From: a bacterium
GTDB lineage: Bacteria; Cyanobacteriota; Vampirovibrionia; Gastranaerophilales; Gastranaerophilaceae
NCBI GenBank assembly: GCA_017471365.1
Contig: JAFUUC010000025.1
Coordinates: 1-39,677 of the forward strand
DNA length: 39,677 nucleotides
Reading direction: 5' to 3'
How positions within the stretch are numbered: the stretch's first letter is position 1; every line of letters starts with the position of its first letter. The position numbers and the translations under genes were made by a program. Below, piece after piece: positions 1 through 39,677 of this stretch. The notes under the pieces were generated by a model that worked only from the letters and a program-made list of their open reading frames with translations, was not told the DNA's origin and made no database searches.

Positions 1-921
1 CACGGAGGTATGAATGATACTTATTCTTCTACTGCTGAATTTGTAGAAGAATTAGGCAAATACATGAAGATTACAGCCGTATGTGACGGATCTACAAAAG
101 CATTTACAGAATGTTTACCGTATAGTGAATTAAACTATATTCAAAATGGTGAACAAAAATCTATTGAATTATCTAAAATAAATTCAGCAAGTTCTCTAAA
201 CCTTCCAACCGGTGGAGAGAAAGATTTTATGAATCCTGTTGCAATAGTTTTAGGAGACGGAACACCAATTATTCTTAGTTATGATAAAAAATGTATTTCA
301 GATCCTGATAGTGTAAAGGTAGATAATAAACAAATCCACAGTTGTGTAGCGGGTATTTATGACTTTAATGGCTCCAGAAAACCAAACTTATATGGTGGCG
401 ATGAACACACAAGAAACGATCTTATTTCATTTAATGGAGCAAAACTTGAAGATTCTTATATAGAGATAGGTGGAGTTAAGATAATTAGCCAGGCTAAAGT
501 TCCAACGCCGGTGAGTTGTAGTGATTACATAGGTAAAGAAGGCTACGAAGCAATTAAAAGCTGCTACTTAAATAACAACGATGACTACTGGGTAGGAGCA
601 ATGGTTGAGTGTAAGAATCAGGGTGGAAGATTACCAAAAGCAAGTGAACTGGCAAATATAGCTAAGGCAATATACAACGACAACTCAATCAGCGAGTCAG
701 AAGATTACAATGAAACAAACCCAACAGCAAACAATTGGGACACAAGCGTAACAGCAAAATTAGGTATAGAAGACTCCGCTTCGTGGTTCTACCTTTGGGG
801 TGACCTCGAGTACGACTCGGGCACTGCGTGGACCCGCTACTTCAACAGTTCGCTCACGGAGTGGGGCTACGGCGACCGCACTGACGACGCTCTCCGCGTT
901 GTTTGCGTAGCGAACGAGTAA
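1..921 (+). CDS. Prepilin-family surface protein with C-type-lectin-like variable C-terminus (5' end outside window)
   Basis: The frame is open from base 1 (His-Gly-Gly before the first Met at 10). The paralogue at 9591 continues upstream of this same point with a type IV prepilin leader, so this is the 3' part of a longer gene and Met at 10 is internal. The visible 306 residues begin with a pilin-like region (YSSTAEFVEELGKYMKIT) also found at 9591. A C-terminal domain follows, with WVGAMVECKNQGGRLPKASEL and ending RVVCV, which resembles C-type-lectin/FGE-fold domains carrying diversified loops. The last ~45 codons are about 60% GC while the rest is AT-rich, and they differ from the paralogue at 39193 mainly at codon positions 1-2. 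Probable role (inference): exported pilus or pseudopilus component with a diversified ligand-binding face. Function is not demonstrable from sequence alone. Confidence 0.8.
   Translation, partial: HGGMNDTYSSTAEFVEELGKYMKITAVCDGSTKAFTECLPYSELNYIQNGEQKSIELSKINSASSLNLPTGGEKDFMNPVAIVLGDGTPIILSYDKKCISDPDSVKVDNKQIHSCVAGIYDFNGSRKPNLYGGDEHTRNDLISFNGAKLEDSYIEIGGVKIISQAKVPTPVSCSDYIGKEGYEAIKSCYLNNNDDYWVGAMVECKNQGGRLPKASELANIAKAIYNDNSISESEDYNETNPTANNWDTSVTAKLGIEDSASWFYLWGDLEYDSGTAWTRYFNSSLTEWGYGDRTDDALRVVCVANE
437..910 (+). repeat. Left arm of a ~475-bp inverted repeat (partner 39201-39677)
   Basis: Bases 437-777 match the reverse complement of 39337-39677 with only scattered substitutions (for example one difference over the 60 bases starting AGTTGT at 512). 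The match continues through the variable region to 910. The two copies are the C-terminal halves of two prepilin-family genes on opposite strands about 38 kb apart. They could support inversion or gene conversion by homologous recombination. The right arm is cut by the window edge, so the true repeat may be longer. Confidence 0.8.
778..910 (+). other. Putative DGR variable region (VR1)
   Basis: This 133-bp segment is about 62% GC (82 of 133 by hand count) inside an AT-rich gene. It starts with GCTTCGTGGTTCTACC and ends TCCGCGTTGTTTGCGTAG, and both ends are identical in the segment at 39201-39336. Over the codons for Y15 to S28 of the aligned segment (counting from Glu-Asp-Ser), differences between copies occur at codons 15, 18, 19, 22, 24 and 26. 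All hit base 1 and/or 2 and leave the third base C or T, as expected if the template codons are AAC/AAT and adenines are randomised. Later codons also vary, some at base 3, and there is a one-codon length difference. The call rests on this pattern, because no template repeat is in the window. Confidence 0.6.
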
Positions 922-2689: not shown

Positions 2690-4495
2690 CTACATTTTTT
2701 GTCTGAATACGTTGATACGTTGTTCAACAGCTGCTCTGTCAGAAGCATTCGGTGCGAGTGATAAGTATTGAGTATAGTATTTAACAGCACCTTCGTAGTT
2801 TTGTTCTGCTTCGTAAGCTTGAGCTTTCAATTTTGCAATTGACGGAGCATTGTGATAAAAATCAATTGCTCTGTTGCAGTATTCAATTGTAGAAGCAAAA
2901 TTTCCTTCCTTATACTGTCTCAATGCGATTTCAAAAAATTCATTTGATTTCATTTCACATAAGTCAATGTAATGTACACCGTTCAATGCAATTCTGTTAT
3001 CCGGATCTGCCATAAGAACTTTTTGTAAAGCTTTTCTTGCAGTTCTAAATTGTTTATGTTGAACAAGAATTTCTGCTAAATAAAGTTCATCATCAATGCT
3101 GTTTGCGAAGTTGATTGCATTTTCAAACGTATAAACAGCATCATTTTCACGTCCAAGTGAAAGATATGCTTCCCCTTTAATTACGGTATCCATCAAGCTG
3201 TCAGAAGCTGATTGAACAATGTAATTAAGGTTATCATTAGTCAATTCCATTTGGTGAGTAAGTTTAGCAAGCTTAATCTTTGCTAAATGAAGTTTCAAAT
3301 CATTTGGAGTTCTTTGAATAGCTTCATTTACATAGTCATAAGCTAAGTAAACATCTTTATTTGTTGTGTAATCACGGCTGTCTGCGGTATCTTTCGCCAT
3401 TTCATAATAAGTATTGGCAAGACCGATAATAGCACTATTATTATAAGTTGCATCACCCAAAAGTCTTGAATAATATTCAAGTGCTTGTTGATACTTCTTA
3501 GTTTCAAGTGACATATTTGCAACTCTGTAAATACCGTCTTTGTAATTAGGATTAAGAACAATTGCTGTTTTTAATTCTTCCATTGCAAATTCATGATCAG
3601 CTCTTCTTTCATAAACCCCTGCAAGATTAATATAAGGACGAGAGTTTTCAGGTTTTACAAGAATAGCTTTTTTAAATGAATTTATAGCAGCAGCCTGGTT
3701 ACCTTGTTTCAAATACAACTCACCTTGCAAATTCCATCCAGGAGATGAATTTGGATTAATATGAAGTGAGTGGTTTAACCAAGTTAACGCCTTTGTATAG
3801 TCACCGCGACGAGATTCAACCTGACCCATGTGATACATCGATGTCGGGTTGTGAGAATTGCATTTAATTGATTGTAAATAATACTTTTCAGCCTGATCAA
3901 GATCGCCGTCTAACATTGCAATATTACCCAAATTGTCATACGCAGGTGCAAAATTCGGGTTAATTTTTAATGCTACATTGAATAGATCCTGAGCATCTTT
4001 TTTGTTACCAAGCTTCAATGTTGCAACACCCATTGCATTATAAGCTTGATAATAAGTACTATCCAAACCTACAGCTGTTACAAATTCTTGAATTGCTGCA
4101 TTTGTAAGGTTTTGAATATTTTTGATATATTCAACATCAGACGATGTTTCTCTCATCATATAAACTAACCCTTGAGCATAGTGAAACTGAGGGTTATTTG
4201 GATATTTTTTAAGTAATTGATCCAACTCAGATTGAGCAGGAGCAAGCTTCCATTGTTTCGCAAATGACATCAATTGAAGTGCCTTTGCCTCTAAATCATT
4301 AGGATTCTTTTTCAAAATTTCTTTCAACTTTGCATCTGCATCAGCATAGTTGTTGTATTCAATCATTTTGCTTATGTCAGTATAACTTTTTGAAACCTGA
4401 GCTTTGATAGGTTGCCCAGCAGCAAACGATTGAGGTGCAAAAAGAACACAAGATGTCAAAATCATTGAAGTTACTAATAATCTTTTACAATTCAT
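2690..4495 (-). CDS. Secreted or periplasmic tetratricopeptide-repeat protein
   Basis: 601 residues. A Sec signal peptide is present (MNCKRLLVTSMILTSCVLFA, likely cut near the AFA-like site at about residue 25). From about residue 36 to the end the protein is nearly all TPR helices; the recurring A-x-G / NP-x-x-A pattern includes INPNFAPAYDNLGNIAMLDGD, INPNSSPGWNLQGELYLKQG and KPENSRPYINLAGVYERRAD. I count at least ten repeats. TPR arrays bind proteins, and in this position it may scaffold envelope or secretion machinery, but no specific function can be assigned. An SD (GTAGGA) precedes the ATG. It is the first gene of the TPR-hypothetical-engB operon and diverges from the Xer gene over an 88-base intergenic region. 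Confidence 0.85.
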   Translation of the reverse strand: MNCKRLLVTSMILTSCVLFAPQSFAAGQPIKAQVSKSYTDISKMIEYNNYADADAKLKEILKKNPNDLEAKALQLMSFAKQWKLAPAQSELDQLLKKYPNNPQFHYAQGLVYMMRETSSDVEYIKNIQNLTNAAIQEFVTAVGLDSTYYQAYNAMGVATLKLGNKKDAQDLFNVALKINPNFAPAYDNLGNIAMLDGDLDQAEKYYLQSIKCNSHNPTSMYHMGQVESRRGDYTKALTWLNHSLHINPNSSPGWNLQGELYLKQGNQAAAINSFKKAILVKPENSRPYINLAGVYERRADHEFAMEELKTAIVLNPNYKDGIYRVANMSLETKKYQQALEYYSRLLGDATYNNSAIIGLANTYYEMAKDTADSRDYTTNKDVYLAYDYVNEAIQRTPNDLKLHLAKIKLAKLTHQMELTNDNLNYIVQSASDSLMDTVIKGEAYLSLGRENDAVYTFENAINFANSIDDELYLAEILVQHKQFRTARKALQKVLMADPDNRIALNGVHYIDLCEMKSNEFFEIALRQYKEGNFASTIEYCNRAIDFYHNAPSIAKLKAQAYEAEQNYEGAVKYYTQYLSLAPNASDRAAVEQRINVFRQKM

Positions 4496-4583: not shown

Positions 4584-5495
4584 ATGGGATTAAACGCAAA
4601 TTCTAAAGAAAATTTGGAAAATTTTCGCTCTTATATTTTGGTGGAAAAGAACTTTTCAAAACATACTGCAAAAGCTTATTATTCCGACATTATGAGCCTG
4701 CTTATATGGCTGGGAGAAACTCGTTGTGAAGATGTAAATTTCGCGAAATTACGGGATTATTTACATTTTATGCAAAAATTTAATTACCGTAAAACTACCG
4801 TGGCAAGAAAGATTGCGTCCATTAGAACATTCTACAAATTTTTAAATAGAGAACAAAAAATAGAAACTAATCCGGCAGAAAATTTAATTTCCCCTAAACG
4901 ACCGAAAAATTTGCCAAAATTCCTCTCTTCAGAGGAGGTCGAAGAAATTTTAAGCGGAGTGAATATTGACACTCCGGCAGGTTATCGTAACAGAACTATT
5001 TTAGAACTTTTGTGGGCAAGTGGAATGCGAATTTCCGAATTAAGTGGTTTGAATTTTGAAAATCTTAATCTCGAAAATAACGAAATTACAGTTTTTGGTA
5101 AAGGTTCAAAAGAACGCATAATTTTGATTACCGATAGAGCAAAAGATTTTCTAAATGGATATATAAAATCAGCCAGAAGTCTTGTTGCTCAAGGTTATAA
5201 AATTTCAACAAGCGATAATTCCCCTGTGTTTATAAATAAAACAGGTTATAGACTACAGCCAAGAATGATACGAAATGTTATCAATGATGTTGTTGACAAA
5301 ATTCAACTACCAAAACACGTCAGCCCTCATATGTTTAGGCATAGTTTTGCAACCCATTTGATTGAGAATGGAGCAGATTTAAGAGTTGTTCAAGAACTTT
5401 TAGGACATGCAAGTATTTCAAATACCCAAATTTACACGCATATTTCAATGCAGCATATGAAAGAAGTTTATGAGCAAACACATCCGCGTGCATAA
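4584..5495 (+). CDS. xerC: Tyrosine site-specific recombinase, XerC/XerD type
   Basis: 303 residues, the normal length for XerC/XerD. An N-terminal SAM-like core-binding domain (residues ~8-95, ILVEKNFSKHTAKAYYSDI) precedes a C-terminal catalytic domain. All catalytic residues are visible: Arg149 in GMRISEL, Lys173 in GKGSKER, His249 and Arg252 in PHMFRHSFATH, His275 in LLGHASI, and Tyr284 in TQIYTH. The C-terminal THPRA matches Xer proteins. Known role: resolving chromosome dimers at dif during division. It is alone, not next to integrase-associated genes, so a housekeeping role is more likely than a mobile-element one. XerC versus XerD cannot be separated here, and the symbol is a best guess. 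I could not find a convincing dif site nearby. Confidence 0.85.
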   Translation: MGLNANSKENLENFRSYILVEKNFSKHTAKAYYSDIMSLLIWLGETRCEDVNFAKLRDYLHFMQKFNYRKTTVARKIASIRTFYKFLNREQKIETNPAENLISPKRPKNLPKFLSSEEVEEILSGVNIDTPAGYRNRTILELLWASGMRISELSGLNFENLNLENNEITVFGKGSKERIILITDRAKDFLNGYIKSARSLVAQGYKISTSDNSPVFINKTGYRLQPRMIRNVINDVVDKIQLPKHVSPHMFRHSFATHLIENGADLRVVQELLGHASISNTQIYTHISMQHMKEVYEQTHPRA

Positions 5496-5870: not shown

Positions 5871-6629
5871 ATGAAAAGATTTGGTTTTACGCTTTCGGAA
5901 GTTATGATTACGATAAGTTTGTTGGGAGTAGTTGCGGCTTTGACTATAGCAAACGTAGGCTATTCTATACAACACAAAGCACGGGTTTCCCAGTTTCAAA
6001 CCGCATATTCAAACATCGAAACCGCCCTTGCAAATATTGAGAACGAAAAAGGCGGTCCATATGCATGTTATTATTGTGCAAATGCTGAAGATGTGGGAAA
6101 GTTCGGTTTAGATAGAAAAACAGCCGGCTCATACAACAGTGAAGTAGGATGTTCTTCTGTAAGAGACGATACCGCTTGTGAAAATTTGAAAAACGATTTA
6201 TTAAGACATTTGGGTGTAAGTCACCATTGTAATACTAATGCTGTTTCTGAAGGTTGCCTTCCTGCAAATTATCCCAAAACAGGAATTACAAATTGTTTTA
6301 ATGAAAATTATACCAAAGTAAAAGCTCATGTTCTTGACAACAGCATGGTTTTAATTGAAAGTCCAAGAACTCAGGATAAAGGAATCAGCGTATTTGCAAT
6401 TGATGTAAACGGAAGAAAAGGACCTAACAAGTGGGGACAAGATATCTTTACTTTTTCAATAAGAGTAAGTAAGGGGAATACTGTTGGGTCAAAGTATTAT
6501 GTCTCTAAAGTTGGTATATATCCTTCAAATTGGTGCCAGCCAGGTTATACTGATGGTGCTAAACTAAATGATAAAGTTTCAAAATCTTCAGTTCAAATGT
6601 TAGAAGAAATTATAAACTATGATAATTAG
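5871..6629 (+). CDS. Cysteine-rich type IV prepilin-like protein
   Basis: 252 residues. The class III (prepilin) leader is short and basic, MKRFG, followed by FTLSEVMITISLLGVVAALTI. The cleavage point is Gly5/Phe6, Glu5 of the mature protein is present, and the hydrophobic helix extends to about residue 28. Such proteins are processed by PilD-like peptidase and join type IV pili or type II secretion pseudopili at the inner membrane. The globular part holds eight cysteines (for instance YACYYC, SEGCLP, NWCQP), unusual for a pilin and suggesting several disulfides after export. Unlike the other prepilin genes here it lacks the GC-rich variable C-terminus. It is preceded by a leaderless-type promoter and ends 11 bases before the convergent endonuclease-like gene. 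Whether it is a structural or minor pilin is unknown. Confidence 0.85.
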   Translation: MKRFGFTLSEVMITISLLGVVAALTIANVGYSIQHKARVSQFQTAYSNIETALANIENEKGGPYACYYCANAEDVGKFGLDRKTAGSYNSEVGCSSVRDDTACENLKNDLLRHLGVSHHCNTNAVSEGCLPANYPKTGITNCFNENYTKVKAHVLDNSMVLIESPRTQDKGISVFAIDVNGRKGPNKWGQDIFTFSIRVSKGNTVGSKYYVSKVGIYPSNWCQPGYTDGAKLNDKVSKSSVQMLEEIINYDN

Positions 6630-6640
6630 GGTTTTAACTT

Positions 6641-7486
6641 TTACAAACTCACATAATAATCTTTTAAAATTTTAGCATCGATTTCAATGTTCGGACTTTC
6701 ACAAACCAAAGCACCTTTTACTCCAAAGGATTTCATTGCTTTTAGTAAATCCTTATAGTTCATATCTGCTTGTTCAAATATTAAATGTCGTTTTTCACCC
6801 TTAGAAGTATATTCAATCCCTGCAATATGTGCGTGGAAATTATCAATTGCTTTTTGTCCGAGTTCGGTTGATATACGATCGAGAATTTTACAAAATTCAT
6901 CATAAGTATTGTAAGCACCGCCTGTTCTTGCATGTACGTGTGAAAAATCAACACAAGGTAAAACCTGTTCAAATTCTTTGGAAAGCCTGATAATTTCTTC
7001 GTAATCTCCCCACTGAGTAGATTTTCCGGTTGTTTCCGGACGGATCCATACATTTTTAATATTATTTTTTTCTAATTCTTCAACAATTTTTTGAGTTTGA
7101 GTTTTAACTTGATTGTATACAACCTCTTTATCTCTACCCATATAAAACGCTGCATGATAAGTTATACTATAACCGCCAAAATCCTGAGCAGCTTGGGCTG
7201 TTTCAACAATTCTTTTGACACTTGCTTTTACTTTTTCTTTCTCTTTAGAGTTTAAATTTATATAGAACGGACCGTGAGAAGTTAGCAAAAATCCTTTTTC
7301 TTTTGAAATTTGTTTAAGAAATTTTTTTGTATCATCGGACATTCGCACACCATGAACAAATTCTACTTCGAGTCCGTCCAAACCCATTTGTTCGAGTATT
7401 TGAAATGCAGCAGAATAACCCCCGTTTTTTGGAGTTGAAAGCGGCATTCCGGCTGTTAAAATATTCAATTTATCAACTTTTATCAT
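6641..7486 (-). CDS. Endonuclease IV-like (AP endonuclease family 2) TIM-barrel protein
   Basis: 281 residues, the length of Nfo-type enzymes. Metal-site motifs follow the family order: SHGPFYINL (compare HAPYLINL in Nfo), YHAAFYMG (HPG position), RPETTGK (the ENTAG position, with the glutamate kept), CVDFSHVHARTG (DxxH), FHAHIAG and a final CESPN (ETP position). Known family activity: cleavage of abasic sites in DNA base-excision repair using zinc or manganese ions. Several motifs deviate from classical Nfo, so a related TIM-barrel endonuclease or sugar-isomerase-like activity cannot be excluded. The ATG is 15 bases after the hisS stop, so the two are probably one operon driven by the hisS promoter. 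Confidence 0.7.
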   Translation of the reverse strand: MIKVDKLNILTAGMPLSTPKNGGYSAAFQILEQMGLDGLEVEFVHGVRMSDDTKKFLKQISKEKGFLLTSHGPFYINLNSKEKEKVKASVKRIVETAQAAQDFGGYSITYHAAFYMGRDKEVVYNQVKTQTQKIVEELEKNNIKNVWIRPETTGKSTQWGDYEEIIRLSKEFEQVLPCVDFSHVHARTGGAYNTYDEFCKILDRISTELGQKAIDNFHAHIAGIEYTSKGEKRHLIFEQADMNYKDLLKAMKSFGVKGALVCESPNIEIDAKILKDYYVSL

Positions 7487-7501
7487 TGTTTAATTACATC
7501 C

Positions 7502-8743
7502 TTACTGTTTTATATTTTTTGGAAGATCTTCTCTCCTAACAGTAATCTGAGTCCCGGTTTCCAAATTTTTAATAGAAACTTCGTGTTTAAGAATTTCATC
7601 TTCGCCGAGAATAACCGCATATTTTGCAACTTTAGAAGCCTTTTCCAATTGTTTTGCAAACTTTTTATTTGCAAGATCAAATTCAACATTGAACCCAAAA
7701 CTTCTCAATTCCTCTGCAAGAATAAAAGTATCTGCCGGAAAATTTGAAACAATATAACAATCAAGTTTTTTAGGTTCTTTTTTCTCGATAAGAGAAATTA
7801 ATCTTTCCATTCCCATTGCAAAACCTATCGCCGGAGTTTCATCTCCGCCAAGCTGTGAAACAAGTCCATCATAACGACCACCACCACAAACTGCATTTTG
7901 CGAACCAAGATTGTTCGATTTGATTTCAAAAACAGTTCTTGTGTAATAATCCAAACCACGCACAAGCAGTTTATTTTCTGTATATTTTACACCCATACGA
8001 TCGAGATAAAGTTTCAATTCGGTATAATGTTCACTGCATTCTTCGCACAAAAAATCTGATGTTAAAACATCCTGAATTTCAGGTTTTGCAAATATTTTTT
8101 GACAATCTTCAACCTTGCAATCTAAAAGTCTGAGCGGATTTTTTTCAAAACGATTTTGACAATCTTCACAAAGATCTTTTAAATATGGTTTAATGGCTTT
8201 TTTAAGCTTTTCTTTAAATTCACTGCGACAATTTGGACATCCCAAGGAATTTATTTCAACATCAAGATCATTTAACCCTAATGATTTTAAGAAATTTACT
8301 GCCATAAGAATGACTTCAGCATCAGCTGTAGGCTGTTTTAAACCAAACATTTCAACACCAACCTGATGAAACTGTCTTTGACGACCTGCTTGAGGTCTTT
8401 CATAACGAAACATCGGACCTTTATACCAGAGTTTAACCGGAGCAGAAAGCCTTGACATACCGTTCTCTATATACGAACGAACAACCCCTGCTGTATTTTC
8501 CGGACGAAGGGTTATCGAACGGTCACTTTTTTCAAAAGTATACATTTCTTTATTAACGATATCGGTTGTATCGCCAACTCCACGAGAAAAAAGCTCTGTA
8601 ATTTCAATTATTGGAGTTCTTATTTCTTTGAATCCGTAACTTGAAAATATTTTTTGTGCTTTTTGCTCTACAAACTGCCACATATTGACATCTTGCGGCA
8701 AAATGTCTTTAGTTCCTTTTAGTGTTTTAATAATATTTGCCAT
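7502..8743 (-). CDS. hisS: Histidyl-tRNA synthetase
   Basis: 413 residues from the chosen start. Class II synthetase motif 1 lies in the N-terminal ~50 residues after LKGTKDILP. Motif 2 is in FRYERPQAGRQRQFHQVGVE, the HisRS-specific histidine A motif is LVRGLDYYTRTVFEI, a CGGGRYDGL loop follows, and motif 3 is AIGFAMGMERL. An insertion carries CPNC, CEDC and CEEC pairs, probably metal-binding, as seen in many bacterial HisRS. The function is charging tRNA-His in the cytoplasm. The ATG at 8743 is preferred over an upstream in-frame TTG at 8764, because the TTG falls inside the promoter spacer. The endonuclease IV-like gene follows after 15 bases. Confidence 0.95.
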   Translation of the reverse strand: MANIIKTLKGTKDILPQDVNMWQFVEQKAQKIFSSYGFKEIRTPIIEITELFSRGVGDTTDIVNKEMYTFEKSDRSITLRPENTAGVVRSYIENGMSRLSAPVKLWYKGPMFRYERPQAGRQRQFHQVGVEMFGLKQPTADAEVILMAVNFLKSLGLNDLDVEINSLGCPNCRSEFKEKLKKAIKPYLKDLCEDCQNRFEKNPLRLLDCKVEDCQKIFAKPEIQDVLTSDFLCEECSEHYTELKLYLDRMGVKYTENKLLVRGLDYYTRTVFEIKSNNLGSQNAVCGGGRYDGLVSQLGGDETPAIGFAMGMERLISLIEKKEPKKLDCYIVSNFPADTFILAEELRSFGFNVEFDLANKKFAKQLEKASKVAKYAVILGEDEILKHEVSIKNLETGTQITVRREDLPKNIKQ

Positions 8744-9109: not shown

Positions 9110-9544
9110 ATGAAAAAAGGCGTTATTTACAGAAGTGAACTTGAAGCTTTTATCAAACAGGACAAAACCACAGGGGTAAATAAAAAGGAAATAACCCCTC
9201 GCCCACAGTATCATTTGAGTGGGGACAAATGTAAGTTGGGGTTACTACCCCAACACGTAAAATTCCTCTCTCTCGACGGGAGATACAAAGCGAACCAAAA
9301 TTTTTGTCATTCTGAACTAGTTTCAGAATCTTCAAAAAATTCGTGCGAGCCTGTATGCGTAGCTGTTTTAGAATCTAATCAAATTGATAGATGCCGAAAC
9401 AAGTTCGGCATGACAGAGGAATTCCCCTCTCCCGGCGGGAGAGGGTTAGGGGTGAGGGGTGTTCCCGCAAGAGACAACCGCACCGCCACTGAGACAATCC
9501 CCTCTCTCTTTGTGACACTAGCCGAGCCAACGTTGGCGAGCTAG
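9110..9544 (+). CDS. Doubtful 144-residue reading frame, N-terminus plausible, rest made of repeats
   Basis: The start is well equipped: promoter at 9024, operator, AAAGGAG SD nine bases before ATG, and N-terminus MKKGVIYRSELEAFIKQDK. From about residue 25 the frame passes through palindromic repeats (9235-9254, 9305-9415, 9424-9570), whose translations (CHSELVSES, SPGGRGLGVRG) are typical of repeat DNA and not of protein. It is best seen as a short gene whose 3' part has been replaced by repeats, or as a decayed gene. The frame ends inside the last repeat, overlapping in another frame the region that runs into the prepilin copy. No function is assigned. Confidence 0.25.
   Translation: MKKGVIYRSELEAFIKQDKTTGVNKKEITPRPQYHLSGDKCKLGLLPQHVKFLSLDGRYKANQNFCHSELVSESSKNSCEPVCVAVLESNQIDRCRNKFGMTEEFPSPGGRGLGVRGVPARDNRTATETIPSLFVTLAEPTLAS
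9235..9254. repeat. GGGGT hairpin related to the one after VR3
   Basis: GTTGGGGT-TACT-ACCCCAAC is a perfect 8-bp stem with a 4-base loop. It resembles the 39154-39175 hairpin (TGGTGGGGTA / TACCCCACCA) in sequence and form, so the two may belong to one dispersed hairpin family. Confidence 0.5.
9305..9415. repeat. Palindromic repeat element with imperfect terminal inverted repeats (~111 bp)
   Basis: The left end TGTCATTCTGAACTAGTTTC and the right end GAAACAAGTTCGGCATGACA are inverted copies with a few mismatches. I recognise this GTCATTCTGAAC...GTTTC type as a widespread palindromic or MITE-like repeat in bacterial genomes, whose translation gives HSELVSES. It is non-coding and interrupts the 9110 frame. 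Confidence 0.6.
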
Positions 9545-9570
9545 CGAGACTTACGCTGGCGGGAGAGGGT
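9424..9570. repeat. GC-rich nested palindromic repeat abutting the prepilin copy
   Basis: It begins with CCCTCTCCC-GGC-GGGAGAGGG (9425-9445), a 9-bp stem, and then GGGGTGAGGGG. A second unit follows with CCCCTCTCTC near 9500, a central GCCAACGTTGGC palindrome flanked by CTAGC/GCTAG (9518-9544), and GGGAGAGGG at 9561-9569. Its right edge runs directly into codons Phe-Lys-Lys-Ala-Ala of the prepilin leader, which therefore has no ATG. Base composition is clearly more GC-rich than the surroundings. This looks like insertion or expansion of repeat DNA across the gene's 5' end. Confidence 0.6.
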
Positions 9571-9590
9571 TTAAGAAGGCAGCATTTACT

Positions 9591-10169
9591 TTGGCAGAAG
9601 TCTTAATCACCCTTGCAATCATCGGCGTAGTCGCTGCATTAACTTTGCCAACACTGATCGCAAAAGTGAACGAAAAAGTCGACGGTAACCAAAAGAAAGT
9701 CACCGAAGCAAAACTTATTCAAGGACTAAACATGTTAGATCTTCATGGCGGAATCAACAATACCTATTCATCTACCGCTGAATTTGCAGAAGAATTAAGT
9801 AAGTACATGAAGATTACAAAGATCTGCGAAGGTACTAATTCAGCATTCACAGAATGTATTCCGTATAGTGAAATAACATACAACAACGGAACGGAAGATA
9901 AAACTGTTGAAATTACTAAATTAAACACAGCAGATTCAATTAGTGCATACGACACTGGTGTATCAGCAAGCTGGGATACTACAGAGGTAGCAAAACTGGG
10001 CATTGACCCTTCTTCTGTTTCTTACTTCTACCTGTGGTCGTCAGAGGAGTACTCGAGTACGAGCATTAGCTCTCGCTACCGCTACTTCAACAGTGGTCGC
10101 ACGAACGGTGATAACGGCAGCGATCGCAGGTACTCCGGGATCAGGTTCGTTTGCCTAGGAGATACTTAA
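9591..10169 (+). CDS. Shortened prepilin-family gene with variable C-terminus, 5' end apparently replaced by repeat DNA
   Basis: The leader reads FKKAAF|TLAEVLITLAIIGVVAALTL, a prepilin methylation motif and membrane helix. However, the frame is open only from 9522 and contains no ATG or GTG, and the first possible start is TTG at 9591 inside the motif, which would remove the processing site. Downstream, the YSSTAEFAEELSKYMKIT region matches the gene at 1-921. About 165 residues present there are missing here, including the GGRLPKASEL part: the text jumps from TADSI to AYDTGVSASWDTTEVAKLGI. The C-terminus (FYLW...RYFNS...IRFVCL) again looks like a diversified segment. It is probably a pseudogene or a silent cassette. 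If functional, it needs a non-standard start or an error in the sequence. A terminator-like hairpin follows. Confidence 0.6.
   Translation: MAEVLITLAIIGVVAALTLPTLIAKVNEKVDGNQKKVTEAKLIQGLNMLDLHGGINNTYSSTAEFAEELSKYMKITKICEGTNSAFTECIPYSEITYNNGTEDKTVEITKLNTADSISAYDTGVSASWDTTEVAKLGIDPSSVSYFYLWSSEEYSSTSISSRYRYFNSGRTNGDNGSDRRYSGIRFVCLGDT
10015..10158 (+). other. Putative DGR variable region (VR2), more diverged
   Basis: The C-terminal segment shares FYLW, RYFNS and (I)RFVCL landmarks with the segments at 778 and 39201. It is rich in Ser, Tyr, Asn, Gly, Asp and Arg codons with C or T at the third base, and its 3' end GTTTGCCTAG resembles GTTTGCGTAG of the others. Codon-by-codon alignment is uncertain because of length differences, so it may derive from another template. 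Confidence 0.4.
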
Positions 10170-25307: not shown

Positions 25308-25453
25308 TCAAAAAGTTCCTCCCGTAGCCTATTATAGAGCATTTTCACTGTGAAATTCAATAAGATTTTGTAAAGTTTTTATAAGTCATATACAGATTTA
25401 TTTAATTTTTCATTCAAACCTGCCGATTAAAAATCATGTGTAGAGGATATAAA

Positions 25454-25999
25454 ATGAGAAAAATTTTAACTTTATTTTGTTTAATTATTTTGTACATTGG
25501 TAGTTTTTCGCTTTATGCAAATGCTGCTATTGGCAAATGGGCAAAACCCCAATACATAAAAACGTATATTCAACCAAATCATCCGCGTACAGTTATGATG
25601 AAACACGCTTTTGCTGAATGGTCAAGGCTTACTAAAGATAAAATAATTTTCAGATACGTAAATTCTACTCAAGATTCACAGCTGGATGTATTTTTTGTAG
25701 ATAAAATTTCTAAGGAAAAGAGTAACTCAGACAGATCAATAGGTTTAACAGAAACCAAAACTTCATCTACAGGTTTTATCAAACACGCAACAATATGGAT
25801 TGCGACTAATGCACAAAACGGCAAAAAATTGAGTGATGACGAAGTTTATACAACAATGCTTCACGAAATCGGTCACTCGATTGGACTAGAACACTCAAAT
25901 AATCCGAAAAGTGCAATGTATTCGGGCGTAAATGTTATTCAAGAAATTGATAAATCCGACCTTGCTACACTGTATAAAATATACGGCTGGAGAAAATAA
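25454..25999 (+). CDS. Secreted matrixin-like zinc metalloprotease
   Basis: 181 residues from ATG 25454, with SD AGAGG at 25442-25446. An earlier ATG at 25436 would put a non-standard MCRGYK before the signal. A Sec signal peptide (MRKILTLFCLIILYIGSF, cut near ANA-A) is followed by a compact catalytic domain with zinc motif HEIGHSIGLEH at residues 137-147 and Met-turn KSAMYSG. There is no pro-domain with a cysteine switch and no C-terminal domain, so it is a minimal metzincin. Substrates are unknown; extracellular or envelope proteolysis is the family role. It has a paralogue at 26678 on the opposite strand, with the toxin-antitoxin pair in between. Confidence 0.85.
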   Translation: MRKILTLFCLIILYIGSFSLYANAAIGKWAKPQYIKTYIQPNHPRTVMMKHAFAEWSRLTKDKIIFRYVNSTQDSQLDVFFVDKISKEKSNSDRSIGLTETKTSSTGFIKHATIWIATNAQNGKKLSDDEVYTTMLHEIGHSIGLEHSNNPKSAMYSGVNVIQEIDKSDLATLYKIYGWRK

Positions 26000-26677: not shown

Positions 26678-27241
26678 TTATTTATTAACGTTCTTTTGGC
26701 TCCATGACCAACCATTAATTTTAAACAGTTTTTCAACATCAATACTTAAAATATCTTGTGTTTCATCTACAGGAAAATGCATAATGCTTCTATATTTTCG
26801 TTCATTATGATTTAGACCTAATGCGTGACCGATTTCGTGAAGCATTGTTGTATAAACCAGATCATTAGAATAATTTTTGTTGTTGGCAACTATCTTTATA
26901 TTTGCCTTAGTAATGTAATTTCCCTCAATAGATAAATTACAAAGTCCTACAGATCCGTCACTTCCACTCAGATTATTAACAAATTCTACCGTAATTTGTG
27001 CCGGTTCTTTTTCTACAAACCTAAATTTTAAATTTCCATAACTTGACCTTTCCCATTTTTGGAAAGCGTGCTGCACCATTGCAGTTTTTGCTTCTTTTTG
27101 CGGTACATAAACAGTTATACTTCCAGATTGCCAATGAGGTGCTGTTGAAACAGTCGTTTGAGCCGCTTGTACAAATACATTTGGCAGCAATAACCCCAAA
27201 CCTAATAACAAAAATAGACTAATAAAAATCTTCTTTACCAT
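26678..27241 (-). CDS. Secreted matrixin-like zinc metalloprotease, second copy
   Basis: 187 residues. Signal peptide MVKKIFISLFLLLGLGLLLP...VQAA, then a single metzincin domain with HEIGHALGLNH at residues 135-145 and Met-turn YRSIMHFP. It is a paralogue of the gene at 25454, with the same length, domain order and W-K/R-x-x-G-C-terminal pattern (KINGWSW versus KIYGWRK), but well diverged in sequence. The SD AAGGAATTG lies before the ATG. Substrate unknown; both enzymes would act outside the cytoplasm. Confidence 0.85.
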   Translation of the reverse strand: MVKKIFISLFLLLGLGLLLPNVFVQAAQTTVSTAPHWQSGSITVYVPQKEAKTAMVQHAFQKWERSSYGNLKFRFVEKEPAQITVEFVNNLSGSDGSVGLCNLSIEGNYITKANIKIVANNKNYSNDLVYTTMLHEIGHALGLNHNERKYRSIMHFPVDETQDILSIDVEKLFKINGWSWSQKNVNK

Positions 27242-29736: not shown

Positions 29737-30279
29737 ATGACAGATAAAAATTCAAATCCGTTTAACGAAAACGTAATTTCTGAAGAACAAAACGAAAATG
29801 TTGAAAATGTTGAAAAAACAGAAGAAACCCAAGATAATGAACTTCAAAAAAAATACGATGAATTAAATCAACAATATGTACGTCTTGCAGCAGATTTTGA
29901 TAATTATAGAAAGCGTCAAGCTCAAGAACGTGAAAATCTTGTAAGTTATGGTACAGAAACCGCTTTGACAAAGTTAATCGAAGTTCTTGATAACTTTGAA
30001 CGTGCAAATAAGGCACTTGAAGGTGTTGAAGATGCAACAAAGATTAAAGAAAGCTTTGATCTGATTCAAAAACAAGTATATGAAACACTGTCAAAACTAG
30101 GATTGGAAGAAATTAAAGCAATCGGAGAAGAATTTGATCCAAATTTTCACGAAGCGGTAATGCAAACTCCGACAAGTGAACACCCGGAACATACAGTAAT
30201 TGCTGAATTACGTAAAGGTTACAAAATGGGTGACAAAGTATTAAGACCGACAATGGTAAATGTTGCGGCTGCCGAATAG
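29737..30279 (+). CDS. grpE: Nucleotide exchange factor GrpE
   Basis: 180 residues. An acidic N-terminus (EEQNENVENVEKTEETQDNE) and long coiled coil lead to the beta domain with the family signature FDPNFHEAVMQTPTSEHPEHTVIAELRKGYKMGDKVLRPTMV. It releases ADP from DnaK. It is first of grpE-dnaJ, with a 39-base gap and no dnaK between or near them in this window. No CIRCE element was seen. An AAGGG SD precedes the ATG. Confidence 0.95.
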   Translation: MTDKNSNPFNENVISEEQNENVENVEKTEETQDNELQKKYDELNQQYVRLAADFDNYRKRQAQERENLVSYGTETALTKLIEVLDNFERANKALEGVEDATKIKESFDLIQKQVYETLSKLGLEEIKAIGEEFDPNFHEAVMQTPTSEHPEHTVIAELRKGYKMGDKVLRPTMVNVAAAE

Positions 30280-30318
30280 TTGTAGTATAAATAGTTGGTA
30301 GGGAATATTTAAGAGAAA

Positions 30319-31446
30319 ATGGCAGATTATTATGAAATATTAGGGGTATCAAAAGATGCCTCGAAAGACGAAATAAAGTCAGCTTTTCGCAAGAAAGCCA
30401 GAGAACTTCATCCTGATGTAAATAAAGCTCCGGATGCAGAGGAGAAATTTAAAGAACTTGGCAAAGCTTATGAAACTCTTTCAGATGACGGAAAGCGTTC
30501 CACTTATGATCGTTATGGCGAAGAAGGCTTAAAAAATGCCGGTTTTGACACAAATGGACCATTCGCTGGCGGTTTTGGAGATTTAAATGATATTTTTGAA
30601 TCATTTTTTGGTGCCGGTGGATTTGGTTTTGGATTTGGAGGCAGACCGGATCCCAATGCTCCGCAAAGAGGTGATGATTTACGCTATGACGTAAAAATAA
30701 AATTTGAAGAAGCCGTTTTTGGAACAAATAAAGAAATAAAATTTGAACATCTGGCAAATTGTCCTGATTGCCACGGCACAGGAACACAAGCTGGTACAAG
30801 CAAAAAAACTTGTCCGCAATGTAAAGGCTCAGGTCAGGTAAAAACTGTTGCAAGAACAGCTTTTGGAAATTTTGCACAAATTACAACTTGTCCAAAGTGT
30901 CATGGTACGGGGCAAATTATTGAAAAACCTTGTAAAACATGCTCCGGAAGCGGTTTAACTAATCAAGAAAAGAAAATTGATATAAAAATTCCGGCAGGTG
31001 TCGATAATCTTTCGAAAATGAGGGTTTCCGGAGCCGGGGATAGCGGTATTAACGGAGGACTTAATGGAGATTTGTTCGTTGTTGTTCATGTAGAACCTTC
31101 TACATACTACAAACGTGACGGTATCAATGTATTTACTGAATTGGAAATTTCTCCGGCACAGGCTGTTATTGGGGATGTTATTTCTATCAAAACTCTTGAT
31201 GGAGATAAGGAAATTCAAATTCCGGCAGGTTCTCAGCACGGAAGTCTTGTAAAAATTAAAGGTGCAGGCATTCCAATCATTTCAAGACCTTCTCAACGAG
31301 GAGATCATATTGTTGTATTAAAAGTTGTTATTCCAACAAACTTGAATGGTGAAGAAAAAGCATTATATGATAAGTTGTACAAATTACAAACAGGTAAAGA
31401 GCCTGATAAATCAATAATGTCCAAGGTTAAGGGAGTATTTAAATAA
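30319..31446 (+). CDS. dnaJ: Chaperone DnaJ
   Basis: 375 residues, full-length class I J-protein. The J domain has the essential HPD in ELHPDVNKA (around residue 33), then a Gly/Phe-rich region ([14 protein letters not shown]). Four zinc motifs follow: [24 protein letters not shown] and CKTCSGSG. The C-terminal substrate domain contains [12 protein letters not shown]. It delivers clients to DnaK and stimulates its ATPase. Follows grpE; the secreted propeller gene begins 2 bases after its stop, so a longer operon runs on to at least 33436. Confidence 0.96.
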
Positions 31447-31448
31447 TT

Positions 31449-32864
31449 ATGAGGAAGTTATTATTAAGTTTAATATTACTTTTATTTACATCCGGAACAG
31501 CTTTCTCTATGCAAGTACCAACGGAAATACAGGATTTTGTAAACCAAATTTTTCCGAATACGAATTTCCGATTTGATGGAGCAATAATTCTGCCTGATAA
31601 TACTATGTACCTTCCAATATTTCCGGCAAATCCAAATAATGTTGAAGAAATAAATATACAATCAACTTATCCTTTAAACGAAACTTTGAAACAAAAACCG
31701 GATATGGTTATATTTAACAATAAATATGTCCTTTTAAAAGTTATTAATACTAATGGCAAAAAAACAGTGATAAATATGACAAATCCACCGGATGAATTAC
31801 AATCTGGATTATTGCCACAAGATATTTTATTACCGAAAGGACTTGTTATTCCTGACAGTTTGAAAGGTATTATTGGAGATTTGGACGTAACTGTTGCTCA
31901 AGAAACAGGATTGCGTATAAATAACACTCGCCACAATAACAAAAAAAGTACAACACCTGTTGAACAACTTGATAATAAAACTTTTTATATTTCAACCGGT
32001 TCAAATAAAAATATTCAAGTTATAAATTCAAATTCAAAAGAACCGGCATATTCTCTTTCACAAGATTTTGTCATAAATGATATTAAAGGGTTTGACGGAA
32101 AATATTTATTGGTAACTTATTTTGACTCTAAAATTATGAATATAATTTCTCTTATGGACGAAAAAGTTATCAAACAAGTAAATTTTGAAACAATTCCGGA
32201 ACAAATTGTTATTGATAAAGAAAATGATTTAGCTTATATTTCATCCGGTTCCAGTTCGAGTATTTATGTTTTCAGCCTAAAAACAATGACATTAAAACGA
32301 CAATTAAAAATTAACGGACACTGCGAAAAACTTACACTTAGTTCTGATGGAACAAAAATATTTTATGTAGATCGTAATAAAAATGATATATGGGCTATTG
32401 AACTTGATAATAATTATTTGTTAAAAAATATTGGCAGTTTCCCGAATATTTCTGAAATTATTTATGTAAACGGTAAAATTTACACTATAAGCCGGACTCA
32501 AAACAGACTTGCAATTGTTGATTATGAAACATTAAATCTCATTAATGAACTGGAAGTTTGTGAAAAACCTGTTGATTTATTTGCAAAAGGTAAAGAACTG
32601 TATATTTTAGGAGCAAAAGATAATATATTAGAAATTCTTGATACGGAAGATGATGTGGTGACGGATAAATTATTTTTGAATACAAACGCTTTTGCTACAA
32701 ATATTACACCGATAGATAATAGTGACATGATAATGATTACAAATGCCCGTTCAGGTTTGTATTCTGTGGTCGATACAATTGATAAAGATATCGTAAAAAC
32801 AAGCCCGCTGGATGTTCCGGTACGTGCAATTGTAATTACCGATAAGGTAAAAACTATTAAATGA
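31449..32864 (+). CDS. Secreted YVTN-like beta-propeller protein
   Basis: 471 residues. Signal peptide MRKLLLSLILLLFTSGTAFS (cut near FSM). The second half reads as propeller blades: NKTFYISTGSNKNIQVINSN, NDLAYISSGSSSSIYVFSLKT, LTLSSDGTKIFYVDRNKNDIW, VNGKIYTISRTQNRLAIVDY. This is the pattern of YVTN/surface-layer or lactonase-type propellers. The N-terminal ~150 residues match nothing I know. Probable envelope-exposed binding protein; no enzymatic residues are evident. It sits 2 bases after dnaJ and its end overlaps the methyltransferase gene by 4 bases, so it is part of that operon. Confidence 0.75.
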   Translation: MRKLLLSLILLLFTSGTAFSMQVPTEIQDFVNQIFPNTNFRFDGAIILPDNTMYLPIFPANPNNVEEINIQSTYPLNETLKQKPDMVIFNNKYVLLKVINTNGKKTVINMTNPPDELQSGLLPQDILLPKGLVIPDSLKGIIGDLDVTVAQETGLRINNTRHNNKKSTTPVEQLDNKTFYISTGSNKNIQVINSNSKEPAYSLSQDFVINDIKGFDGKYLLVTYFDSKIMNIISLMDEKVIKQVNFETIPEQIVIDKENDLAYISSGSSSSIYVFSLKTMTLKRQLKINGHCEKLTLSSDGTKIFYVDRNKNDIWAIELDNNYLLKNIGSFPNISEIIYVNGKIYTISRTQNRLAIVDYETLNLINELEVCEKPVDLFAKGKELYILGAKDNILEILDTEDDVVTDKLFLNTNAFATNITPIDNSDMIMITNARSGLYSVVDTIDKDIVKTSPLDVPVRAIVITDKVKTIK

Positions 32865-39036: not shown

Positions 39037-39153
39037 AATTTATAAAATCCCTCATTTAATCGTTTTAACAAAGGAAATTATACAATAAACACCAAAAAAC
39101 GCAAACCGTTTTTTGATGTTTATTTACTGAATTGTTTACTTGATAGTTTTGTA

Positions 39154-39175
39154 TGGTGGGGTACTTACCCCACCA
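39154..39175. repeat. Perfect hairpin downstream of VR3
   Basis: TGGTGGGGTA-CT-TACCCCACCA, a 10-bp stem with a 2-base loop, 17 bases after the stop of the prepilin-family gene. No T-tract is on either side. It matches the hairpin at 9235-9254 in type and the VR1 hairpin (930-943) in position. Confidence 0.65.
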
Positions 39176-39192
39176 CTAATTAAATAACTGAG

Positions 39193-39677
39193 CTAGCCTC
39201 CTACGCAAACAACGCGGAAACCGTTGCCATTGCGGCGGTTGGTGTCGCTCCAAACCGTAGTCGAACTGCGGAAGACGCGGCCCCACGCACTGCTCGAGTC
39301 GTCCTCGAGGTCACCCCAAAGGTAGAACCACGAAGCGGAATCTTCTATGCCCAGTTTGGCTGTTACGCTCTTATCCCACTCGTTTGCAGTTGGGTCTGTA
39401 GCGTTGTATTCTTCAGACTCGCTGATTGAATTGTCGTTGTATATTGCCTTAGCTATATTTGCAAGTTCACTCGCTTTTGGTAATCTGCCACCTTGATTTT
39501 TACACTCAACCATAGCTCCTACCCAGTAGTCATCGTTGTTATTTAAGTAGCAGCTTTTAATTGCTTCGTAGCCTTCTTTACCTATGTAATCACGACAACT
39601 CACCGGCGTTGGAACTTTAGCCTGGCTAATTATTTTAACTCCGCCTATCTCTATATAAGAATCTTCAATTTTTGCTC
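39193..39677 (-). CDS. Prepilin-family surface protein with variable C-terminus (5' end outside window)
   Basis: The frame stays open to the window edge (AKIEDSYIEIGGVKIISQAK before the GTG at 39603), so that GTG is internal and the gene continues beyond 39677. The visible 160 residues are closely related to residues ~147-306 of the gene at 1-921, including CRDYIGKEGYEAIKSCYLNN, GGRLPKASELANIAKAIYN and WFYLWGDLE. The ending is SAWGRVFRSSTTVW...NGFRVVCVGG, whose NGFRVVC closing is characteristic of the C-type-lectin fold used by diversified proteins. Composition changes from AT-rich to GC-rich within the last ~45 codons. Proposed role as for the 1-921 gene. Confidence 0.8.
   Translation of the reverse strand, partial: AKIEDSYIEIGGVKIISQAKVPTPVSCRDYIGKEGYEAIKSCYLNNNDDYWVGAMVECKNQGGRLPKASELANIAKAIYNDNSISESEEYNATDPTANEWDKSVTAKLGIEDSASWFYLWGDLEDDSSSAWGRVFRSSTTVWSDTNRRNGNGFRVVCVGG
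39201..39336 (-). other. Putative DGR variable region (VR3)
   Basis: A 136-bp segment, three bases longer than VR1, with the same 5' start (GCTTCGTGG) and the same 18-base 3' end. Variable codons include GAC, AGC, AGT, GGC, GTC, CGC, GAC, ACC, AAC and GGC where VR1 has TAC, GGC, ACT, ACC, TAC, AAC, TAC, GGC, GAC and GAC. All listed pairs end in the same third base. Confidence 0.6.
39201..39677 (-). repeat. Right arm of the ~475-bp inverted repeat (partner 437-910)
   Basis: Reverse complement match to 437-910, described at that entry. This copy runs off the window edge. Confidence 0.8.

Follow-up and report, generated by a model that had tools for sequence, protein, structure and literature searches.

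Variable repeats in dispersed prepilin genes of a Gastranaerophilales genome point towards a decentralised diversity-generating retroelement

Three segments of a 39,677-nucleotide stretch of DNA (the window) from a Gastranaerophilales bacterium are, with a probability of roughly 0.87, variable repeats (VRs) of a diversity-generating retroelement (DGR) whose parts are scattered over the chromosome and whose reverse transcriptase (RT) acts in trans. The window is contig C23 of its own genome G000, a 96.9% complete draft of 1.81 Mb in 109 contigs. The wider picture, which we regard as probable with a smaller degree of confidence, is that of a decentralised DGR: a single trans RT, together with separate template-RNA genes that are each marked by the same structured leader and of which one has its own terminator, would rewrite more than 60 dispersed prepilin tip genes in this gut bacterial genome of 1.8 Mb. 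Judged by its anatomy, namely templates, adenine-specific differences, Avd and targets with a predicted C-type-lectin (CLec) fold, the system would belong to the DGRs, with an RT assembled only in congeners. The features are collected in Table 1.

Table 1. Putative variable repeats and their genes in the window, and the locus of the second template on contig C101
Feature	Position	Strand	Description
Variable-protein gene A	1..921	+	ORF; prepilin family, predicted C-terminal CLec-fold domain; 5' part lost at contig end
VR-A	774..910	+	TR1-derived (C36:508-644); changed: 22/41 A, 0/96 non-A
Variable-protein gene B	39193..39677	-	ORF, same family as gene A; 5' part lost at contig end
VR-B	39200..39339	-	TR1-derived, one extra codon; changed: 21/41 A, 1/95 non-A
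Variable-protein gene C	9570..10169	+	prepilin motif KKAAFTLAEVLIT, shortened middle, then VR-bearing C-terminus
VR-C	10009..10163	+	from TR2 or a TR2-like unassembled template (TR2b)
C101 locus		-	prepilin gene with VR (32025-32179), TR2 (30224-30378), avd, secA

The paralogous segments 778-910 and 39201-39336, with which the sequence-only reading of the window had started, are present as placed, and each terminates the reading frame of its protein. The first 14 codons had been described as identical; this is inexact, codon 12 being TAC in one copy and GAC in the other, and the pattern still fits. The variation of later codons at base 3, which had been given as a caveat, is seen when the copies are compared with each other and largely vanishes when each is aligned to the template TR1, since the reverse-strand copy contains one additional codon and adenine is the third base of template codons such as GAA.

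This template was found by searching the own genome with window 770-921, which gave 28 matches. One of them, C36:508-644, lies outside genes. TR1 is non-coding, without the reading frame of the targets, and exhibits AAC or AAT (...TTCAACCTTTGGGGTGACCTCGAGAACGACTCGAACAATGCGTGGAACCGCAACTTCAACAGTTCGAACACGGAATGGAACAACAACAACCGCAATAACAACAAT...) where the target genes have NNC or NNT. The sequence-only reading had proposed a template search with mismatches scored by template base, and the mismatches were indeed found to be concentrated on A. For 778-910 its inference holds: none of the mismatches lies at C, G or T, and the chance of all 22 falling on the 41 adenines of 137 sites is p = 1.6e-14. Over the 23 TR1-derived VRs, 468 of 943 A sites (49.6%) are changed compared to 118 of 2203 non-A sites (5.4%; Fisher p~4e-175), the latter consisting of 50/846 C, 44/713 G and 24/644 T. 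Per site, template adenines thus differ about nine-fold more often than the other bases, with a free choice of G, T or C as replacement. A-to-N changes yield a stop in no codon of TR1, and its 23 variable codons correspond to about 10^23 proteins.

Ordinary paralogue divergence or gene conversion in a large pilin family, comparable to pilE/pilS, would do without a retroelement. The targets are indeed numerous paralogous prepilins, sequence exchange is possible within families of this kind, and no RT is assembled here; but neither the roughly nine-fold adenine bias nor a non-coding, adenine-rich master copy is predicted by this explanation, and we give it hardly any weight. The adenine specificity of the changes also led us to reject antigenic variation of pilins by gene conversion.

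A second template, TR2, was reached from a weak Avd match. It is also non-coding and without a target reading frame, and is located beside avd, upstream of secA. The own genome contains 40 VRs related to TR2 or a TR2-like template, including the third copy in the window, with changes at 865 of 1847 A sites (47%) compared to 222 of 4068 non-A sites (5.5%). At least 24 of the 40 score best on a TCCGGTNNCAGG-like tail that is absent from TR2 and in which the NNC codon varies, and rebasing on a putative template TR2b removes up to 4 apparent non-A mismatches per VR. VR-C is 83% identical to TR2; compared to TR2b, 17/46 A and 3/104 non-A sites are changed. These observations would fit either an additional template, TR2b, with the end TCCGGTAACAGG, or TR2 in an earlier state. 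That more than two templates exist, with an unassembled TR2b sitting beside the RT and with TR1 and TR2 as duplicated template-only loci, has about even odds in our estimation. The tail preferred by these 24 VRs and the effect of rebasing support it, but TR2b is something that we infer, and the same pattern would result if TR2 had since changed from an ancestral version. This refines the reading of a dispersed DGR and is compatible with it.

In total, at least 63 diversified targets (23 traced to TR1, the other 40 to TR2 or a template closely related to it) were counted genome-wide, a match being accepted if it covered at least 60% of the template with a non-A mismatch below 20%. VRs were de-duplicated by exact sequence only, and some copies at contig ends of this draft could be alleles of one gene. 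The earlier suggestion that several pilin-like genes are rewritten by a DGR is supported, and only a small part of the system is visible in the window.

The prepilin N-terminus proposed for the family was borne out. Full-length paralogues begin with the motif K-A-A-F-T-L-A-E-V-L-I-T..., with E at +5 and a hydrophobic helix, and those of gene A in the own genome are 89-90% identical to it and have the full prepilin N-terminus. PF07963 (N_methyl) is above its cut-off in L030 and matches 16 of 19 aligned members, and TIGR02532 is likewise above its cut-off. By these motifs, the diversified targets would be located on a pilus or pseudopilus. The true start codon of gene C is uncertain, the listed ORF beginning at 9591. 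Open frames of interspersed repeats (FCHSELVSES.., LPSPGGRGEGVRGVPVRG..) occur in window 9110-9544 (+) and in upstream parts of many targets (L050, L051, L055); annotated target starts may be wrong because these frames run into prepilin genes, and the repeats may have a role in the spread of the family. A further prepilin-type gene (MKRFGFTLSEVMITISLLGVV...) at window 5871-6629 (+) is without a VR and stands outside the diversified set. The window also contains two neighbouring candidates for small secreted matrixin-like metalloproteases (HExxHxxGxxH) at 25436-25999 (+) and 26678-27241 (-).

The VRs sit at the 3' end of the target ORFs, which places the variable codons at the very C-terminus, as in known DGR targets. 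An AlphaFold2 model of a target (mean pLDDT 76, pTM 0.49, higher confidence in the C-terminal part) exhibits a long N-terminal helix, and its residues 215-370 gave CLec-type matches to Bd2740 of Bdellovibrio (Z 9.5), intimin (7.9), Legionella Lcl (7.8) and Mtd of phage BPP-1 (6.1), with C-type lectins also among the best structural matches. Foldseek with the full-length model returned no match at E<=0.001, and the fold call rests on the second aligner. Since Z values below 8 are common for unrelated folds, the call also leans on Lcl_C, which matches 4 members, and on the DGR context. A C-type-lectin fold of the target tip is thus predicted, in accordance with the lectin-like tip suggested by the sequence-only reading.

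Within VRs having at most 4 non-A changes, paralogues diverge by 4-5% at non-A sites and by 54-57% at A sites, compared to 15-17% in the 240-nt upstream flanks. The contrast with the flanks is overstated by this pre-selection for few non-A changes; the greater likeness of the non-A sites fits copying from a master. Overall, the VRs span 0 to about 20 non-A changes and many carry 5-20, as if some were rewritten often and others had drifted. Part of the set, namely the VRs with many non-A changes, looks old or no longer rewritten. DGR targets are expected to have a stem-loop downstream of the VR that aids target recognition. Hairpins of at least 7 bp occur within 90 nt downstream of only 36 of the 63 VRs, compared to 5-6% in shuffles, many of them terminator-like and indistinguishable from terminators. 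A near-identical hairpin, GGTGGGGTA-NN-TACCCCACC, differing in its 2-nt loop, was observed 26-30 nt past about 11 VRs (e.g. window 39140-39180 (-)) and may represent either a terminator or the stem-loop of a DGR target site.

Although the templates themselves differ, the approximately 200 nt located 5' of TR1 and TR2 are related. In related DGR loci this leader lies between avd and TR, and in several it starts within the 3' end of avd. RNAalifold revealed a stem of 10 pairs, 9 of which have changes on both sides across 11 related loci; 90% of the cells are paired, and none of 500 shuffles reached the observed covariation score. Structures slid by 1-3 columns were only 24-52% paired, a control that is lenient because the same alignment had yielded the structure. 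Almost every sequence is predicted to contain a second hairpin. With a covariance model of the leader, the hits in the own genome were exactly C101 and C36, and strong hits in congeners were restricted to G005, G020 and G024, each of which has an RT of the IGNLTSQ type. Strong hits are members of the training set by construction; what is informative is the lack of high scores elsewhere in the genus, the next hits being G030, G034 and G041 at E 0.003-0.014. Rfam contains no family for the leader; sub-threshold FinP/SymR hits (L005:661-752) fall on the terminator hairpin.

TR1 is followed, at C36:711-748, by a 17-pair hairpin with a T run. Leader, TR1 and terminator, located about 430 bp upstream of rpoB, thus resemble a self-contained RNA gene. 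No match to TR1 was found in 45 congeners at E<=1e-30, and the template therefore appears to be species-specific. Exact patterns of leader and TR1 had no match in IMG/VR, which gave no sign of a viral carrier there. The occurrence of the leader on templates without an adjoining RT shows what a portable DGR template RNA might need.

The avd gene at L109:3835-4176 (-) is intact and encodes 113 aa; Avd is an accessory protein that many but not all DGRs have. Its product matches PF22296 (bAvd) with 48.3 bits (cut-off 40) and DivGenRetAVD with 54.7 bits, below the cut-off of 80. For RVT_1 (PF00078) there was no match in the own draft assembly even at E<=10, and the same search detected RTs in 15 of 46 congeners. 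Four of these, G005, G020, G024 and G025, share one related RT family with the DGR signature IGNLTSQ, and the same four are the only genomes besides the own one with a good Avd match (partial in G025; a weak match was found in G015). G005 has a complete cassette of prepilin target, avd, TR and RT, with 18 of 21 TR-VR differences at A. Its RT is located about 3 kb upstream of rpoB, and this site and that of the own TR1 may have a common origin. In G020 and G024 the system is split, with TR-avd and RT on different contigs, and the RT of G020 adjoins a prepilin target with a VR. Two dispersed targets in G020 are changed at 28/74 A and 1/148 non-A sites, and seven in G024 at 112/254 A and 10/515 non-A sites. 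The same RT family with prepilin targets occurs across contigs labelled Candidatus Gastranaerophilales or Melainabacteria, which would put the genome of the window within this group or close to it.

Several other DGRs or probable DGRs were also observed. In L165 (CALUYZ010000002.1), a related DGR from Gastranaerophilales, a single RT-Avd-TR cassette is surrounded by four prepilin targets, two of which end identically, suggesting a recent duplication. L157 (CALUWD010000008.1) represents another DGR type in the same group, with a 209-base TR (5104-5312 vs 3686-3893; 20 of 21 differences at A) and an inverted candidate VR near a prepilin-like gene. A quick self-comparison near the RTs of G006, G038 and G040 gave repeat pairs beside other RT types at L108 (G038:C7; 7268-7384 / 7451-7567), where 11 of 12 differences are at T (A on the other strand), and at L111 (G006:C17; 5144-5262 / 5349-5467), where this applies to 15 of 16. 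Both are probably phage-type DGRs unrelated to the family in the window.

The sequence-only reading had made its claim dependent on a DGR RT in the genome. Taken literally, the draft contains none, but it is incomplete where the RT is expected: by hand count, a match to the target protein family lies within 10 bases of the contig start in 45 of the 109 contigs, and an RT beside a target gene could easily be lost from such a draft. It is less probable, and in our judgement unlikely, that the lineage recently lost its RT and that templates, Avd and targets are the remains of a once-active dispersed DGR. The absence of the RT from a 97%-complete assembly would be explained in this way, published Treponema denticola isolates have targets without RT or TR (PMC4891356), and non-A changes have accumulated in many VRs. 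Nevertheless, seven TR1 and six TR2 VRs still have no more than one non-A difference from their template, the covarying stem is kept in both leaders, TR1 has kept a strong terminator, Avd is intact, and the 45 contig starts break inside the target family, the place of the RT in G020. Since these breaks coincide with the very place expected for a split RT, we judge "unassembled" to be more likely than "lost". A dispersed DGR is the reading that we prefer, and its activity may continue.

According to this preferred reading, a single DGR-type RT, whose presence and identity in this genome are presumed, would act in trans, and its gene would probably adjoin another prepilin target in a region that the draft lacks. 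The template RNAs would be leader-TR1-terminator upstream of rpoB and leader-TR2, followed by avd, upstream of secA. A complex of RT and Avd would recognise the leader and probably also the shared 3' GATGAATTAAACAAAAA tract, TR1 or TR2 would be reverse-transcribed with errors at adenines, and the resulting cDNA would take the place of the 3' end in any one of several dozen prepilin genes having a matching VR end. The outcome would be 23-26 varied codons on the CLec-fold tip of a pilin-like surface protein. Such tips may bind ligands, and would then probably serve attachment to varied gut surfaces or cells. The bacterium appears to maintain hypervariable surface proteins in large number and at scattered loci, which suggests a repertoire strategy with many diversified receptors present simultaneously instead of one that is rewritten at a time. 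With prepilins as targets, the diversified tips would sit on surface filaments of gut cyanobacteria that are non-photosynthetic and about whose attachment little is known.

Similar to the DGR of the Bordetella phage BPP-1 (avd-TR-brt, target Mtd), the system exhibits adenine-specific differences between TR and VR, an AAY-rich template, Avd and a predicted CLec-fold tip. The RNA 5' of TR in BPP-1 includes the 3' end of avd (PMC12875486), and the leader described here resembles this flank in also taking in the avd 3' end. In contrast to the one compact cassette with one target in BPP-1, templates, Avd and 63 targets are dispersed, the targets are cellular prepilin-like proteins, and no RT is seen in the draft. 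In Treponema denticola, a single TR serves 2-7 lipoprotein targets per genome, and isolates without RT occur (PMC4891356). Both host-associated bacteria share the use of a template for several remote targets, whereas here 63 prepilins and two templates are found. Thiohalocapsa PB-PSB1 has nine loci with 15 targets, putative antigen sensors of conflict systems (PMC10907252). It is alike in its multiple, partly incomplete loci and in the diversification inferred in trans (PMC10907252), but its targets are not prepilins. With 63 targets and two or three templates in 1.8 Mb, the present system goes far beyond these numbers.

For Cyanobacteriota, 219 orthologues over 21 genomes were described, mostly kinase-linked and predicted to be cytosolic (PMC7517822). 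They likewise have remote variable proteins with CLec tips (PMC7517822); the text of that study mentions neither Melainabacteria nor pilins. Yan et al. (2019) reported a genome in which 91 TR-VR pairs show few A-to-N changes and a single adhesin gene contains 21 merged VRs (PMC6642488), as well as putative pilins linked to DUF1566 domains (PMC6642488), and pilin-like DGR targets as such are therefore not new. As Roux et al. (2021) pointed out, RT-centred mining would miss remote targets (PMC8144416), and RT-centred surveys are blind to dispersed systems of the present kind. A search of open-access literature, with few subscription journals and preprints among it, gave no publication that deals with DGRs of Melainabacteria or Gastranaerophilales. 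The present system differs from those described in its 63 targets, in templates that have no RT alongside but share a leader, and in the use of prepilins as targets in gut cyanobacteria that are non-photosynthetic.
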